Part shown: in pieces, positions 50,649-60,052 of the stretch
How positions within the stretch are numbered: the first letter of the stretch is position 1
How the letters are laid out: each line of letters opens with the position of its first letter
Assembly: GCF_012275375.1 (NCBI RefSeq)
Contig: NZ_JAAZQJ010000010.1
Span: 62,001-126,000 of the forward strand
Source of the DNA: Dyella sp. SG609
GTDB taxonomy: Bacteria > Pseudomonadota > Gammaproteobacteria > Xanthomonadales > Rhodanobacteraceae
Direction of reading: 5' to 3'
Length of the DNA stretch: 64,000 nt
Notes under the pieces: generated by a model
Seen by the model: the letters and a program-made list of their open reading frames with translations, nothing else
Told to the model about the DNA's origin: nothing
Database searches by the model: none
Translations under genes and position numbers: made by a program

Positions 50649-51247
<599 letters not shown>

Positions 51248-51359
51248 GAATTATTCGTACGCATTAAAAAAGTGCTTGCACGAATAATCTTGCTCGCGTA
51301 ATGTTCGCGCCTCGCCAATACCGGCGACAAGCATTAACTGAAAAGGCCAGGATCAAACC

Positions 51360-51461
51360 ATGTCGTTCCACGTCATTCACCGCCAGCTGCCCTCGCGCGA
51401 TCGCCGCGGCGCGCTGCCGTGCGTGCGGACGAAGGAAGGCCGTTTCATCCACACCGACTGA
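51360..51461 (+). CDS. Possible 33-residue basic peptide gene
   Basis: ATG with AGGA eight bases upstream, 33 codons, product rich in Arg and His with a single Cys (starting MSFHVIHRQLPSRDRR and ending GRFIHTD). It lies 112 bases after the regulator gene and is followed 50 bases later by a strong terminator, so it would be the last unit of a transcript starting at a weak candidate promoter, TTGCAC at 51276 with TAATGT at 51299. It could equally be non-coding. No family is recognised. Confidence 0.4.
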   Translation: MSFHVIHRQLPSRDRRGALPCVRTKEGRFIHTD

Positions 51462-51510
51462 TCCCACGCTTGCGCGGAGATCGGTCACCCCGATCTCCCG
51501 AGGCAAGGCG

Positions 51511-51547
51511 AACGCCCTCGGGTCCATACCCGGGGGCGTTTTGTTTT
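51511..51547 (+). terminator. Rho-independent terminator before the tRNA-like region
   Basis: AACGCCCTCGGG pairs with CCCGGGGGCGTT around a TCCATA-type loop, then TTGTTTT. It separates the exporter/regulator unit from the RNA-repair locus. Confidence 0.85.
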
Positions 51548-51894
51548 CGGCGTTCGCAAGGAAGCGTTCATGCACCGAAAGGTGATGACGGCACTGATCA
51601 TCGGAAGACCACTTCCGCCCTGAAGCATCCGGCCGCGCCCCGGCCGAGGCAGGGGCGGCCGCGAGCGGCGCTCAGGATGCGCTGTGCCTTGATGCTTCGG
51701 CACGGGCGGACGGGTGATCGGCAAGGTCTCAACAGCATTCGGGTGCGTGGCACCCACACGCATGACCGGTTGGCGACAGCCGGCCATACGAAGCATCGCC
51801 ACGACAGGCTCCAGCGGTACGGGTTCCAAGCCCCGTCCGGTGCGCGCGGCTATGCCGGCAGCGTATGCCGGGCCTGCACGTTCGGTGTTTCGCA
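51548..51894. other. Gap of about 350 bp upstream of the tRNA-like elements
   Basis: No gene is supported. The DNA is GC-rich with several short hairpins and one T-arm-like stretch (GGGTTCCAAGCCC at about 51828-51840) that hints at a further decayed tRNA-like unit. I looked for a sigma-54 (-24/-12) promoter as in RtcR-controlled operons; the best match has correct GG-N10-GC spacing near 51668 but poor flanks, so I do not call it. Confidence 0.5.
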
Positions 51895-51968
51895 AAGACG
51901 TTAGCTCAGTCGGGTAGAGCAGTGGCTTCGGTTGCCATGTGACACCGGTTCGAATCCGGTACGTCGCT
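51895..51968 (+). ncRNA. tRNA-like element 1 (anticodon-position CGG, degenerate acceptor stem)
   Basis: It folds as a cloverleaf: D-arm GCTCAGTCGGGTAGAGC with GG in the loop, anticodon stem GTGGC/GCCAT with loop TTCGGTT (U33 kept, CGG in the anticodon place), 5-nt variable loop, T-arm ACCGG-TTCGAAT-CCGGT. The acceptor stem AAGACGT/ACGTCGC pairs only at five of seven positions, with the two outermost pairs broken, and no CCA follows. It is unlike a normal tRNA-Pro. Tandem with a second element and upstream of slipin-rtcB, it may be a decoy, sensor or substrate RNA for the ligase, or a decayed tRNA. Confidence 0.65.
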
Positions 51969-51969
51969 G

Positions 51970-52046
51970 ATTTGGATAGCTCAGTCGGGATAGAGCACTG
52001 ACAACAGATGTCGGTAGTCGCGGGTTCGAATCCCGCTCCAAAACCA
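51970..52046 (+). ncRNA. tRNA-like element 2 (anticodon-position CAG, U33 lost)
   Basis: Directly after element 1. D-arm GCTCAGTCGGGATAGAGC, anticodon stem CTGAC/GTCGG, loop AACAGAT, T-arm GCGGG-TTCGAAT-CCCGC, acceptor TTTGGA/TCCAAA (six pairs) followed by A and CCA at 52044-52046. The otherwise universal U33 is A, and CAG would be a Leu anticodon but there is no long variable arm, so this cannot be a normal tRNA-Leu. The intact stems with abnormal anticodon loop suggest a maintained structure whose loop is not used for decoding. Confidence 0.65.
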
Positions 52047-52436
52047 CGGGAGCGCAAGCTCCCTCACCAGGAAGCGCCCCGCGCGGCGCGGATGGTTTCA
52101 TCAAGGACGATGAGCCATCGGCGCCGCAGCGCCAGCCACGCCGGACCGTCGTCCCGATAACGGGCCGATGGCCGCCGGCAAGCGGCCGGTTCGCCGTGCC
52201 GCGGACGGTGTCCGTCGCCCCGAAGGAGGCGCGACGGTCCCGCGTCGCCAGCGCCAGGGGTGCTTCCACCCTATTAATGACATCGGCCATGAAAAGGTTT
52301 ATGGCCGATTATCCCGCGAGGGAGGGCTTTCTACGCCCCGCGGATTATCAAACAGGATTTTCGCGCGCCCCGGTCCGTCCGTGCGAAAGGCATTAATCGA
52401 AGGCGGCCCGCATTAAGGGATAAAGGAGTCATTCCC
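52047..52436 (+). promoter_or_regulatory. Structured leader of the slipin-rtcB operon
   Basis: About 390 bp without a gene. Hairpins: GATGG...CCATC (52091-52119); a 9-bp helix GGACCGTCG/CGACGGTCC closing 52143-52240 with internal hairpins CCCG-ATAA-CGGG and GGCCGC/GCGGCC; and a perfect 9-bp hairpin ATCGGCCAT/ATGGCCGAT with 10-nt loop at 52282-52309. High GC makes some pairing expected by chance; the last hairpin is the cleanest. No certain promoter was identified. A strong AAAGGAG precedes the slipin ATG. Confidence 0.5.
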
Positions 52437-53561
52437 ATGTTCTGGATCAAGCAAATCGTGGTCGGCGACGGCGAGCGCGGTTTGCTGTACCGCAACCGTC
52501 GACTGCAGCGCGTGCTCGCCCCGGGCCTGTACCGCTGTTTCGATCCGCTCAACCGTGTAGCCGTGGTGCTGCACAACGTGGCGCGGGCCGAATACGCCGG
52601 CAGCGACGCCGAGGTGCTGATGGCGGGGATGGATACGCGGCTGGCGCCGCGCTTCCTGATCGCCGACGTCGGCGTGGACCAGGTCGGCCTGGTGCTGAAG
52701 AACGGCAAGCTGGAAGACGTACTCGCGCCGGGTACCCGCAAGCTGTACTGGAAAGAGCTGGTGCCGGTGGAACTGCGCCTGGTGCCGCTGGCGGGGACGC
52801 TGGAAGTGCCAGCCGACGTGGCCAACCGTCTGCGCCAGCTCGGCGTGCTGTCGAAAATCGCCCTGGTGGTGGAGGTGCCGGCGGAATCGGCGGGCCTGTT
52901 GTTCCTGGACGGCAAGCTGGTGCGCACGCTGGCGCCGGGCAGCTACGCGTTCTGGCAGTTCAGGAAGAACGTGGCCGCCGAGGTGATCGAGCTGCGCGTG
53001 CAATCGTTGGAAGTGTCGGGCCAGGAACTGCTGACCCGCGACAAGGTGAGCCTGCGCGTGAACCTGGCCGCCAGCCTGCGCGTGACCGACCCGGTCGCCG
53101 CGCGTACCAAGGTGGCCAAGTACGGCGACTACATCTATCGCGAGCTGCAGTACGGGCTGCGCAAGGCGGTGTCGTCCAAGACGCTGGACGAGCTGCTCGG
53201 CGACAAGGCCTCGCTCGACGCCGATATCTTCGCCTACGTGTACAGCCGCGTGGCCGAGCTGGGCGTGGAAGTGCTGGGCGTCGGCATCAAGGACGTGATC
53301 CTGCCGGGCGAGATGAAGGACATCCTCAACAGCGTGGTGCAGGCGGAGAAGGCGGCCCAGGCCAATGTGATCCGCCGCCGCGAGGAGGCGAACGCCACGC
53401 GTTCCCTGCTCAATACCGCCAGGCTGATCGAGGAAAGCCCGGTGTTGATGCGCCTGAAAGAACTGGAGGCGCTGGAGAAGGTCACCGAGAAGATCGACAA
53501 GCTGACCGTGTTCGGCGGCCTGGATGGCGTGCTGAAACAGCTGGTGACCCTCAAGGAGTAA
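52437..53561 (+). CDS. Slipin-like SPFH protein with three N-terminal GxLxxLAPG modules
   Basis: A 374-residue protein. The C-terminal ~195 residues are an SPFH/band-7 domain (VSGQELLTRDKVSLRVNLAA; GDYIYRELQYGLRKAV; LGVGIKDVILPGEM) followed by a charged helix (RREEANATRSLLNTARL). The N-terminal part has no membrane helix; instead a motif of the form GLLxxxGKLxxxLAPGxY occurs three times with LAPG at residues 27, 96 and 165, an exact 69-residue period. Slipins next to RtcB are a known association in bacterial RNA-repair operons. rtcB follows 54 bases later. A scaffolding role is inference. Confidence 0.88.
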   Translation: MFWIKQIVVGDGERGLLYRNRRLQRVLAPGLYRCFDPLNRVAVVLHNVARAEYAGSDAEVLMAGMDTRLAPRFLIADVGVDQVGLVLKNGKLEDVLAPGTRKLYWKELVPVELRLVPLAGTLEVPADVANRLRQLGVLSKIALVVEVPAESAGLLFLDGKLVRTLAPGSYAFWQFRKNVAAEVIELRVQSLEVSGQELLTRDKVSLRVNLAASLRVTDPVAARTKVAKYGDYIYRELQYGLRKAVSSKTLDELLGDKASLDADIFAYVYSRVAELGVEVLGVGIKDVILPGEMKDILNSVVQAEKAAQANVIRRREEANATRSLLNTARLIEESPVLMRLKELEALEKVTEKIDKLTVFGGLDGVLKQLVTLKE

Positions 53562-53615
53562 AACAGTCGCTGCGGCGGAAGGAATCGCCGCAGCGGCCCT
53601 TAAGGAACGACAAGC

Positions 53616-54827
53616 ATGAGTAGCGGAACTTCATATCAATTACTGCACGCCGAAGGCGCCAAGCCGATCAAGGGCTGGGTCGACGGCGTGCCGCTGGAAG
53701 CGCAGGCGCATGCGCAGCTGCGCAACATCGCGGCCCTGCCGTTCGTCGGCCCGTGGGTGGCGGTGATGCCCGACGTGCACCTGGGCAAGGGCGCCACGGT
53801 GGGTTCGGTGGTGCCGACGCGCGGCGCCATCATTCCGGCCGCGGTCGGCGTGGACATCGGCTGCGGCATGGCCGCAGTGCGGACCACGCTGCGCGCAGCG
53901 GACTTGCCGGAGAGCCTGGCCCAGTTGCGTTCGAGCATCGAGCGCGGCGTGCCGGTGGGCAATGGCGAGCACCGCAGGATCCCGGACGGCATCGGCACGC
54001 GGCTGGTGCAGTCGGGGCTGGCGCAGCGGCTGGAGCTGATCAAGGCGAAGCACCGCAAGATCCGCACCGACAAGATCGAGCGGCAACTGGGTACGCTGGG
54101 CGGCGGCAATCACTTTATCGAGCTGTGCCTGGACGAAGAGGAGCGCGTGTGGGTGATGTTGCACTCCGGTTCGCGCGGCACCGGCAACCTGATCGGTACG
54201 TACTTTATCGAGCGGGCGCGCGAACAGCTGGCGCATCGCGTGCTGGGCTTCCACCTGCCGGACCGCGACCTGGCCTTCTTCATGGAAGGCGAGCCGCTGT
54301 TCGACGATTACGTGGAAGCGGTGTCCTGGGCGCAGGACTACGCCCGCCACAACCGCGAAGCGATGATGGCGCGGGTGCTGAACGAACTGCGCCACCGCCT
54401 GCCGAAGTTCCAGCTCGACAAGCAGGCGGTGAACTGCCACCACAACTATGTGCAGCGCGAGACGCACTTCGGCGAATCGCTGCTGGTCACCCGCAAGGGC
54501 GCGGTCAGCGCACGCGCGGGCGAGCTGGGCATCATCCCCGGCAGCATGGGCAGCAAGAGCTACATCGTGCGCGGCAAGGGCAACGCGGACAGCTTCCACA
54601 GCTGCAGCCACGGCGCCGGCCGCGTGATGAGCCGCGGCATGGCCAAGCAGAGCATCACCCTGGCCCAGCACCGCGAGGCCACCGCGCACGTGGAATGCCG
54701 CAAGGACTCGGGTGTGCTCGACGAATCGCCGGCGGCGTACAAGTCGATCGATGCGGTGATGGCCGCGCAGGTCGACCTGGTGGAGGTGGTGCATACGTTG
54801 CGGCAGGTGTTGTGTGTGAAGGGGTAG
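53616..54827 (+). CDS. rtcB: RtcB family RNA ligase
   Basis: A 403-residue GTP-dependent ligase joining 2',3'-cyclic phosphate or 3'-phosphate ends to 5'-OH ends of broken RNA. Metal and catalytic residues align with E. coli RtcB: VGVDIGCG with Asp80 and Cys83, GGGNHF with His166, LHSGSRG with His183, NCHHNYV with His275/276, and the guanylylated His332 in CSHGAGR. ATG 53616 follows AAGGA. RtcA and the regulator RtcR are not in the window. Its partners here are the slipin and the two tRNA-like elements upstream. Confidence 0.95.
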   Translation: MSSGTSYQLLHAEGAKPIKGWVDGVPLEAQAHAQLRNIAALPFVGPWVAVMPDVHLGKGATVGSVVPTRGAIIPAAVGVDIGCGMAAVRTTLRAADLPESLAQLRSSIERGVPVGNGEHRRIPDGIGTRLVQSGLAQRLELIKAKHRKIRTDKIERQLGTLGGGNHFIELCLDEEERVWVMLHSGSRGTGNLIGTYFIERAREQLAHRVLGFHLPDRDLAFFMEGEPLFDDYVEAVSWAQDYARHNREAMMARVLNELRHRLPKFQLDKQAVNCHHNYVQRETHFGESLLVTRKGAVSARAGELGIIPGSMGSKSYIVRGKGNADSFHSCSHGAGRVMSRGMAKQSITLAQHREATAHVECRKDSGVLDESPAAYKSIDAVMAAQVDLVEVVHTLRQVLCVKG

Positions 54828-54844
54828 GGCCGATCGCCAGCCCG

Positions 54845-54935
54845 GTAGGTTGGGGTGAGCCATCGGCGAACCCCAACAATGCGTGGCGTGTCGATGTGCC
54901 GGTGTTGGGGTTCGCCTTCGGCTCACCCAACCTAC
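54845..54935. repeat. GTAGGTTGGGGTGAGC-type inverted repeat, copy 2
   Basis: GTAGGTTGGGGTGAGCC is inverted at 54920-54935 (one C short); inner arms GGCGAACCCCAAC and GTTGGGGTTCGCC also pair. It starts 18 bases after rtcB. Confidence 0.9.
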
Positions 54936-54968
54936 GTTTGGTTTTCGTCCTGCTTGGTAACATGTGGC

Positions 54969-55057
54969 GTAGGTTGGGGTGAACCATCGGCGAACCCCAA
55001 CAATGCGTGGCGCGTCGATATGCTGGTGTTGGAGTTCGCCTTTGGCTCACCCCAACC
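54969..55057. repeat. GTAGGTTGGGGTGAGC-type inverted repeat, copy 3
   Basis: A near-duplicate of copy 2, 124 bases downstream, sharing the central AATGCGTGGCG segment as well. The right outer arm runs into the following CATTCCGG repeat. Confidence 0.88.
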
Positions 55058-55187
55058 ATTCCGGCGCAGGGCGAATCATCCAGTGACGACAACGTCCGGT
55101 TGTCGCAAAAGCGCATAAGAATATGCCTTGGGACATGGCGCTCGATGTGGCGCCCTGCTACTGGATTCCGGCCTGCGCCGGAATGAC
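55057..55187. repeat. CATTCCGGCGCAGG-type inverted repeat, third copy
   Basis: The right arm TACTGGATTCCGGCCTGCGCCGGAATG at 55159-55187 is intact; the left arm at 55057 is altered (CATTCCGGCGCAGGGCGAAT). It abuts the preceding repeat, so the gap 54828-55250 is nearly all repeat DNA. Confidence 0.8.
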
Positions 55188-55250
55188 GGAGTAGGAAGGT
55201 GTGCGCACACTTGCTGCGTGGGGTGCCTTTGGGATGGTGAGGAGCGTTCG

Positions 55251-59023: not shown

Positions 59024-60052
59024 TTGAAGAAGTCAGATTTCGATTTCGAGCTGCCGCCCGAACTGATCGCCCAGGCCCCGCTGCCGGAGCGCACGGCCAG
59101 CCGCCTGCTGCTGCTGGACACCCAGGCGCAGTCGCTGCAGGACCGCATGTTCCGCGACCTGCCCGGGCTGCTGCGCGCGGGCGACCTGCTGATCCTCAAC
59201 GACACCCGCGTGCTGCCGGCGCGGCTGTACGGGCGCAAGGAAAGCGGCGGCGCAGTGGAGATTTTGCTGGAGCGCGTCACCGGCGCGCACGAGGCGATCG
59301 CCCAGCTGGGCGTGAGCAAGAAGCCGAAAGAGGGCGGCCGCATCGAGCTGGCCGACGGCAGCCACGCGGTGGTGCTGGGCCGCGACGGCCAGTTCTTCCG
59401 CCTGCGCTTCGAATCGCCCGAGCCGCTGGAACGCCTGCTGCGCCGCCTGGGCGAGATGCCGCTGCCGCCGTATATCGAGCGCCATGCCGATGCCAGCGAC
59501 CTGGAGCGCTACCAGACGGTGTTCGCGCGCGAGCCCGGCGCGGTGGCCGCGCCCACCGCCGGCCTGCATTTCGACGAGGCCATGCTGGCGCAGCTGCGCG
59601 AGCTGGGCGTGGAGTTCGGCTATGTGACCCTGCATGTCGGCGCCGGCACCTTCCAGCCGGTGCGCGCGGACGACATCAAGGACCACCAGATGCACCGCGA
59701 ATGGCTCAACGTCGGCGCGGGGCTGGTGGAGCAGGTGCGCCGCACCAGGGCGCGCGGCGGGCGGGTGATCGCGGTGGGCACCACCGTGGTGCGCGCGCTG
59801 GAGAGCGCCTGCCGCGACGGCGAGCTGCGCCCGTTCGCGGGCGAGACGCAGATCTTCATCTTCCCCGGCTACAGGTTCAGCAGCATCGACGGCCTGATCA
59901 CCAACTTCCACCTGCCGCAGTCGACCCTGCTGATGCTGGTGTCCGCGCTGGCGGGGCGGGAGTTCGTGCTGCAGGCGTACCGGCATGCGGTGGCGCAGCG
60001 GTATCGGTTCTTCTCGTATGGGGACGCCATGATGATCCTGCCCCGCAGCTGA
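59024..60052 (+). CDS. queA: S-adenosylmethionine:tRNA ribosyltransferase-isomerase
   Basis: A 342-residue enzyme that transfers the ribosyl part of SAM to preQ1-modified tRNA to make epoxyqueuosine. It starts at TTG ([20 protein letters not shown] matches the family N-terminus; no in-frame ATG is available). Motifs: [44 protein letters not shown] and [20 protein letters not shown]. First gene of queA-tgt-yajC-secD-secF, although two repeat elements now separate the members. Confidence 0.95.

Follow-up and report, generated by a model that had tools for sequence, protein, structure and literature searches.

A large conserved RNA with tRNA-like domains upstream of slipin genes: a candidate tRNA mimic in bacterial RNA repair

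Why should two defective tRNA-like folds stand ahead of an RNA-repair gene? The question is raised by a locus of the gammaproteobacterium Dyella sp. SG609 in which an SPFH-family slipin gene and, after it, rtcB lie on one strand, both 3′ of two tandem tRNA-like elements designated TL1 and TL2. The locus belongs to a 64,000-nucleotide stretch of contig NZ_JAAZQJ010000010.1 (positions 62,001 to 126,000 of the forward strand), the whole of which is referred to here as the window. An earlier reading made from the sequence alone (the sequence-only reading) saw in the two elements decoys for anticodon nucleases, sensors whose broken form induces the operon, or RNAs that the ligase processes. Comparison with relatives indicates that TL1 and TL2 both belong, as domains, to a single conserved RNA of roughly 500–650 bases, which is folded, is closely linked to slipin, sits in an RNA-repair neighbourhood and mimics tRNA with a changeable anticodon triplet.

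The two tandem tRNA-like folds are real. ARAGORN calls both, as 'Pro(cgg)' at 51894-51969 and 'Leu(cag)' at 51970-52045, and the Rfam tRNA model gives TL1 45.1 bits and TL2 42.4 bits, the two lowest scores among 49 tRNA matches in the genome. Their defects are as the sequence-only reading described them: the outer acceptor pairs of TL1 are broken and it has no CCA, whilst in TL2 position 33 is an A and the CAG triplet comes with no long variable arm. TL2, it can be added, likewise lacks CCA. The 47 ordinary tRNAs of the genome all encode CCA (47/47), and a normal tRNA-Pro(CGG) and a normal tRNA-Leu(CAG) are present besides. Among 4227 Rfam families only tRNA passes its gathering score at the locus, the others seen at E≤5 being weak and below theirs, and at six other loci Rfam likewise finds only tRNA around the RNA.

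The sequence-only reading treated TL1 and TL2 as two separate elements covering 51895-52045. The folds stand but the extent does not, both being modules of one larger RNA. In an alignment of up to 900 nt upstream of slipin from 28 relatives, conservation extends beyond the tRNA-like part, and the conserved RNA spans about 51760 to 52267, possibly starting from 51614. RNAalifold arranges it as a 5′ hairpin, the hairpin at 51762-51787, a multibranched core, TL1, TL2, a GNRA-capped hairpin and a 3′ domain. The features of the locus are as follows:

51510..51541, + strand: upstream terminator-like hairpin (pattern scan only), possibly the left border of the transcription unit
51614..51706, + strand: long 5′ hairpin, conserved in the family and the least certain part (RNAalifold on 28 family sequences); it may belong to the same transcript or be a control element
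51762..51787, + strand: hairpin directly 5′ of the core domain (96.1% of cells paired, double changes at 7/10 pairs)
51789..51892, + strand: multibranched 5′ core domain (alignment A2, covariation controls, covariance model R1)
51896..51967, + strand: TL1, first tRNA-like domain, no CCA (ARAGORN, Rfam, alignment with covariation test)
51970..52044, + strand: TL2, second tRNA-like domain, with short acceptor, no CCA and an anticodon triplet that varies among relatives (ARAGORN, Rfam, alignment with covariation test, triplet comparison in relatives)
52048..52063, + strand: GNRA-capped hairpin 3′ of TL2 (GC/AU swaps at 3/5 pairs)
52070..52267, + strand: 3′ domain of ~200 nt; its closing helix, which pairs 52070-52080 with 52257-52267, is 11 bp long and covaries
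52437..53561, + strand: slipin-type SPFH protein, 374 aa (Pfam Band_7, AlphaFold2 model, Foldseek)
53616..54827, + strand: rtcB, RNA ligase, 403 aa (PF01139, 1.3e-123)

The two genes thus run in one direction, as had been claimed. Base pairs are preserved by compensatory change, a point on which the sequence-only reading had let its own case depend. In the core (26 sequences) double changes occur at 24/43 pairs, with 95.7% of cells paired, and 0/500 shuffles reach the covariation score; in the TL region (28 sequences) they again occur at 24/43 pairs, with 97.6% of cells paired and 0/500 shuffles as good. Controls with slid partners score far lower than the real pairing in both. The closing helix of the 3′ domain has double changes at 7/11 pairs and 98.7% of cells paired; 0/500 shuffles reach its score and 1/500 match its number of doubly changed pairs. 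No double change is seen in the acceptor or D arm of TL2 or in the core helix GUGCGC/GCGUAU, so these count as conserved sequence that fits the fold rather than as proven helices. Shuffle controls cover the core, the TL region and the 3′ closing helix, the inner 3′ helices and the 51614-51706 hairpin coming from RNAalifold. Within the core a stretch GGUGCGC...GCGUAUGCC is near-invariant.

How closely is this RNA tied to its neighbours? Within the family, the core covariance model R1 has one match each in 26/197 genomes, the same 26 that a slipin profile identifies, and in 26/26 the core RNA lies directly upstream of slipin on the same strand (listed coordinates compared). R1 finds no match at E≤0.001 in the 171 slipin-less family genomes. 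Of the 26 sequences behind the model, 18 came from the R1-positive family genomes, and for six of those 26 genomes (G036, G067, G075, G115, G165, G187) no copy or near copy was recognised in its input. It gives the window's core domain, itself among that input, 125.3 bits. Ahead of slipin in the window and 73 loci outside the model, R1 matches 55/74 at E≤0.01 and 62/74 at E≤1. At one locus (L045:4212-4498) the 5′ core domain seems tandemly duplicated, with two R1 matches of 37.5 and 41.8 bits.

More widely, a unit with D arm and T arm is found upstream of slipin in 98/101 distinct loci, which answers the question, raised by the sequence-only reading, of whether relatives carry slipin without the elements; the three loci without a unit (L060, L080, L095) have T-arm hairpins by a loose pattern. 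A second full unit is present in 58 of the 98, and in the other 40 TL2 loci a T-arm pattern occupies TL1's place in 15, against 1.67 in shuffled stretches. The distance from the end of the TL2 T arm to slipin is 247–640 nt (median 404, 98 loci). Among the records retained (80 of 561 relatives) one is titled Verrucomicrobia (L061), and the other titles that bear a taxon are proteobacterial, mainly beta and gamma. In a class-wide sample slipin occurs in 15/274 genomes, 12 of which have a full tRNA-like unit and two (L160, L175) a T-arm hairpin only; at L161 there is no tRNA-like unit or T-arm hairpin within 900 nt of slipin, whereas L174 has three units in tandem. A second model, R2, matches 9/274 genomes of this sample, 6 with slipin and 3 without; it missed 9/15 slipin genomes, three of which (L158, L166, L163) fall below E 0.001 when searched locally. 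The three matches without slipin (E 0.004-0.044, no tRNA calls there) were taken as chance.

These counts exclude duplicates: L037, L088, L092, L118, L126, L134 and L135 were removed from the locus, loop, acceptor/CCA and triplet counts, the exact duplicate L133 was dropped, and L111-L114, L122 and L128-L131 repeat earlier loci. L036, L047 and L090, with <300 nt upstream, stand outside the 101; L017, truncated where its contig ends, and L018-L030, with weak SPFH matches, were unused, as was ARAGORN at its 75% threshold, which was too noisy for counting. Carriage by viruses or plasmids was considered and set aside, there being one IMG/VR contig and 9 'plasmid' records, all rated non-mobilizable and of 0.33–4.8 Mb.

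The anticodon arm of TL2 bears most directly on what the RNA might do. In 88/98 loci its loop has 7 nt and its stem 4/5 pairs or more, and in these 88 TL2s the make-up of the loop (C32 in 57, U33 in 65, U36 in 55, A37 in 71, A38 in 65) resembles that of a true anticodon loop. The loci being related, these are not independent counts. The 88 carry 31 different triplets. Relatives were compared with the 67 of them that alignment A5 also contains, 21 pairs being chosen by similarity of the core domain (mean core difference 18%). Between pair members 4.9% of sites are different in the D arm, T arm and inner acceptor of TL2, against 28–31% in the anticodon stem and 54% in the triplet; the triplet is changed in 17/21 pairs. 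Thirteen pairs have two or more changes in the triplet, and 23/26 of their stems are fully paired. A 20% cut leaves 11 pairs, with TL2 arms differing by 3.4%, triplets by 39% and the triplet changed in 8/11. When pairs are instead chosen by similarity of the TL2 arms, the triplet differs in 31/35, the 0–5% arm difference then being partly by construction. U36-A37, a determinant of t6A modification, occurs in 45/88 TL2 loops, whether through ancestry or selection.

The sequence-only reading had paired slipin with rtcB as a unit. Slipin is indeed the constant partner of the RNA in the samples, but RtcB directly 3′ of it, though common, is not universal: rtcB holds that place in 21/26 family genomes. 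Of 80 named loci, 42 have rtcB downstream on the same strand and 9 have it at another place in the stretch; in the available stretch of the other 29, several of these stretches being short, it is absent. The RNA-repair setting itself is borne out by other lineages, where RtcA, RtcR and the repair polymerase RlaP adjoin. At L070 and L099 the order is RtcR | rtcB-rtcA-RNA-slipin, and in Burkholderia (L171) it is RtcR | sigma54-like site, RNA, slipin, with RlaP 1.3 kb on. In E. coli (L170/L173) a sigma54-like site is followed by a T-arm remnant, slipin and RlaP. The sigma54-like sites of L171 and L170 match at 11/12 positions and lie ahead of the RNA or its remnant, so that RNA and slipin may form one transcript there. 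The E. coli locus (L170:6682-8922, L173:3349-6235) lies between yjbD and lysC and includes an opposing zeta-toxin-family gene. A single-sequence fold of its leader is no better than shuffles (z -0.35), and the E. coli version thus comes down to the T-arm hairpin and the promoter-like site. At L093:6196-7293 and L083:6197-7324, in records titled Betaproteobacteria, an AAA-ATPase gene (PF00004) lies directly 3′ of slipin.

What the RNA does can be proposed with less assurance. The reading that we prefer, giving it a little under an even chance, is that this large structured non-coding RNA is a tRNA mimic, a bait or competitor for anticodon-directed factors in the response to tRNA damage; we place it above a sensor or a ligase substrate because of the anticodon-loop evidence. 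The RNA would probably be made as the leader of the slipin–rtcB transcript, or be released from that leader by cutting, and would display its tRNA-like domains, of which relatives have one to three. TL2 would offer the elbow of a tRNA together with an anticodon stem-loop whose triplet can change, and we infer that it would therefore be bound or cut by anticodon-directed factors, the candidates being anticodon nucleases or the sensors and repair factors of cut tRNA. In this way the RNA could protect real tRNAs or feed repair, acting with the SPFH protein and, where present, with RtcB/RtcA or RlaP.

Several observations weigh against a bait. The variability of positions 34–36 may reflect no more than a loosened constraint on an arm that serves the structure; of the 13 strongly diverged pairs, 11 keep A37 in both members and 8 keep U33, and the window's own TL2 has A33. 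The TL1 anticodon hairpin has a 7-nt loop in only 27/58 loci, the rest including GNRA-type tetraloops. RtcB, at E≤1e-40, has no match in four RNA-bearing family genomes (G036, G075, G165, G191), two of them incomplete (G165 78% and G191 86% complete, with the G191 slipin at a contig end), and so seems not to be essential. No PADLOC model matches slipin, RtcB or RlaP. Finally, fragments of YrlA, an RNA with a tRNA-like domain, are reported to have gone undetected, so that YrlA was no substrate of the nuclease used there (Hughes et al. 2020, PMC7790460).

YrlA is nonetheless the nearest precedent. It is one of the bacterial Y RNAs that accompany Ro60/Rsr in rsr-yrlBA-rtcBA operons, and competitive inhibition of an anticodon nuclease has been named as a possibility for its tRNA-like domain (Hughes et al. 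2020, PMC7790460). Like YrlA, the RNA described here is non-coding and has a tRNA-like module beside rtcB. Unlike YrlA, it is about 500–650 nt long, has one to three tRNA-like domains with changing anticodons and is partnered by an SPFH slipin rather than Ro60, the host's own TROVE gene being on another contig. That gene is part of a second repair locus of the host (L146:5594-9842, contig C8), with a TROVE/Ro60-type gene, rtcB and rtcA on one strand, at which Rfam finds no match.

The preferred reading of the RNA as bait can be taken further, into territory that we consider possible but doubtful: the RNA would belong to a new class of large non-coding RNAs, spread widely through beta- and gammaproteobacteria, and would form a modular bait array of one to three tRNA-like domains with fast-changing anticodons, made together with a vault-like SPFH particle. 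Such an array would absorb anticodon nucleases, whether from phages, from rivals or among the toxins of the cell itself, RtcB/RtcA or RlaP would mend the damage and neighbouring tRNA arrays would refill the pool. An RNA that mimics tRNA while its anticodon changes would represent a type of self-protection or counter-defence not seen before. Bacterial RNA repair gains a candidate nucleic-acid partner and a hint of the substrate, and the role of SPFH proteins in rtc loci becomes testable. The E. coli locus, in which a remnant-like leader precedes slipin, is present in 1624/5426 complete E. coli genomes, so that a laboratory model may be at hand.

A different view, which we hold to be rather unlikely, is that the RNA acts in cis: as the 5′ leader of the mRNA for slipin (and rtcB), it would refold when one of its tRNA-like domains is cleaved or bound, and so switch the operon. 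Its position on the same strand, at a similar spacing to slipin across the 98 loci, fits this, as does the finding that the pattern scan sees no + strand terminator-like site between RNA and slipin in the window; over 51100-55200 that scan gives 5 sites where 2.9 are expected by chance. The sigma54-like sites ahead of the RNA or its remnant at L171 and L170 also fit. The tRNA-like units, however, stand several hundred bases ahead of the start codon and are separated from it by sequence of poor conservation, and the lineages linked to RtcR already have a protein sensor (PMC7790460). Control by sigma54 found no support in the window's own lineage: across 106 upstream regions, sites matching at 10/12 positions number 3 forward and 1 reverse, and none matches at 11. 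At the window locus itself there is no sigma54 match in the 1.5 kb upstream.

A structural role is, in our estimate, unlikely as well. Here the tRNA-like domains would dock a slipin particle to tRNA-binding enzymes, as has been proposed for the modules of Y RNAs bound by Ro60, and the identity of the anticodon would be irrelevant. In keeping with this, the RNA pairs closely with slipin rather than RtcB, the D and T arms of TL2 evolve slowly and its distal arm fast, and the distal arm of TL1 is often without a 7-nt loop. The slipin itself, which has an SPFH (Band_7) domain (PF01145, 9.5e-30) and, by eye, no evident hydrophobic or membrane helix at its N terminus, yields an AlphaFold2 model (37 sequences, pLDDT 83.5, pTM 0.59) of beta repeats, SPFH core and long coiled coil, in that order. 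In Foldseek this model lies near SPFH proteins that form oligomers and near major vault protein (MVP): stomatin comes first (1.9e-15), followed by other SPFH complexes and MVP (best 2.2e-11), with MVP chains aligned over 416–476 columns, gaps included, at a query TM-score of about 0.38–0.44. On this model slipin might form a cage or vault-like particle, the link to vault RNA being one of analogy only. Against the docking role, 88/98 TL2s keep a 7-nt loop and the C32/U33/A37/A38 bias, for which a docking arm would have no need.

That the units are functional tRNAs of a specialised kind, excised and charged to serve under stress, is very improbable. A few are near normal (L010 TL1, with CCA; L034 TL2, 68.6 bits; L061 TL1, 63 bits), and tRNA arrays adjoin some loci, but CCA is encoded in only 10/58 TL1s and 8/98 TL2s, a full 7-bp acceptor is present in 17/58 and 7/98, and anticodon loops of 6 and 8 nt occur. 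The window's TL1 and TL2 have broken outer pairs and no encoded CCA, and the triplet is not conserved among orthologues. Best matches of TL1 and TL2 are scattered (Lys/Asp/Val and Ser/Gly/Ala) and do not point either way on descent from one tRNA. The adjoining arrays, scanned for at 27 and 5 loci, comprise 24 ordinary-looking tRNA genes on the same strand at L061, 14 at L082, 12 at L093 and 8 at L038 (TL1/TL2 excluded), and 12 on both sides of slipin at L167; same-strand arrays also lie by the RNA–slipin unit at L098, L050 and L091. Such arrays are possibly backup tRNA sets.

That the elements are decayed tRNA genes or an island attachment site of no present function is hardly credible, for while low tRNA scores and missing CCA would suit it, covariation and conservation in a larger non-tRNA fold, found mainly in beta- and gammaproteobacteria before the same gene, contradict it, and the sequence-only reading was right to separate them from ordinary decayed tRNA genes, relatives carrying them with pairs preserved by compensatory changes.

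Three further systems invite comparison. In RtcR-controlled rtcBA operons the likeness lies in the window's rtcB and in the RNA and slipin that stand behind RtcR | rtcB-rtcA in L070 and L099; the difference is that at the window locus neither RtcA nor RtcR, nor TROVE, is among seven scanned neighbouring open reading frames (ORFs), and the sigma54 match is missing, whereas L070 and L099 have rtcA and a divergent rtcR with sigma54 promoter. In Anabaena, a tRNA array (the trn operon), rtcB and slipin are raised in a trcR deletion or named as targets of TrcR (PMC10272220). There too translational stress connects rtcB and a slipin gene with an array of tRNA genes, but these are not adjacent, and the available part of that paper does not describe a tRNA-mimic RNA (PMC10272220). 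The P. aeruginosa SPFH gene PaFlo8 lies within an rtcA/rtcB/rtcR locus, but the word 'tRNA' is absent from the main text of the report (PMC13086221). RtcB, slipin and tRNA-like elements were found together in no one paper of the literature searched, and no description of this RNA was found there, though an earlier mention may exist.

As for the surroundings of the window locus, the seven other nearby ORFs carry ABC-transporter, histidine-kinase, response-regulator, DUF3142 and queuosine-synthesis domains, and one has no domain. The RtcB stretches with Cys and His motifs, which we take to be catalytic, can be aligned to RtcB chains of solved structure. At 59024-60052, 4 kb past rtcB, there is, probably by coincidence, a gene for the biosynthesis of queuosine (PF02547), an enzyme of the pathway that modifies anticodons of tRNA. 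Directly 3′ of rtcB, at 54845-55065, there are repeated palindromic GTTGGGGTGAGCC...GGCGAACCCCAAC units that look REP-like by eye.

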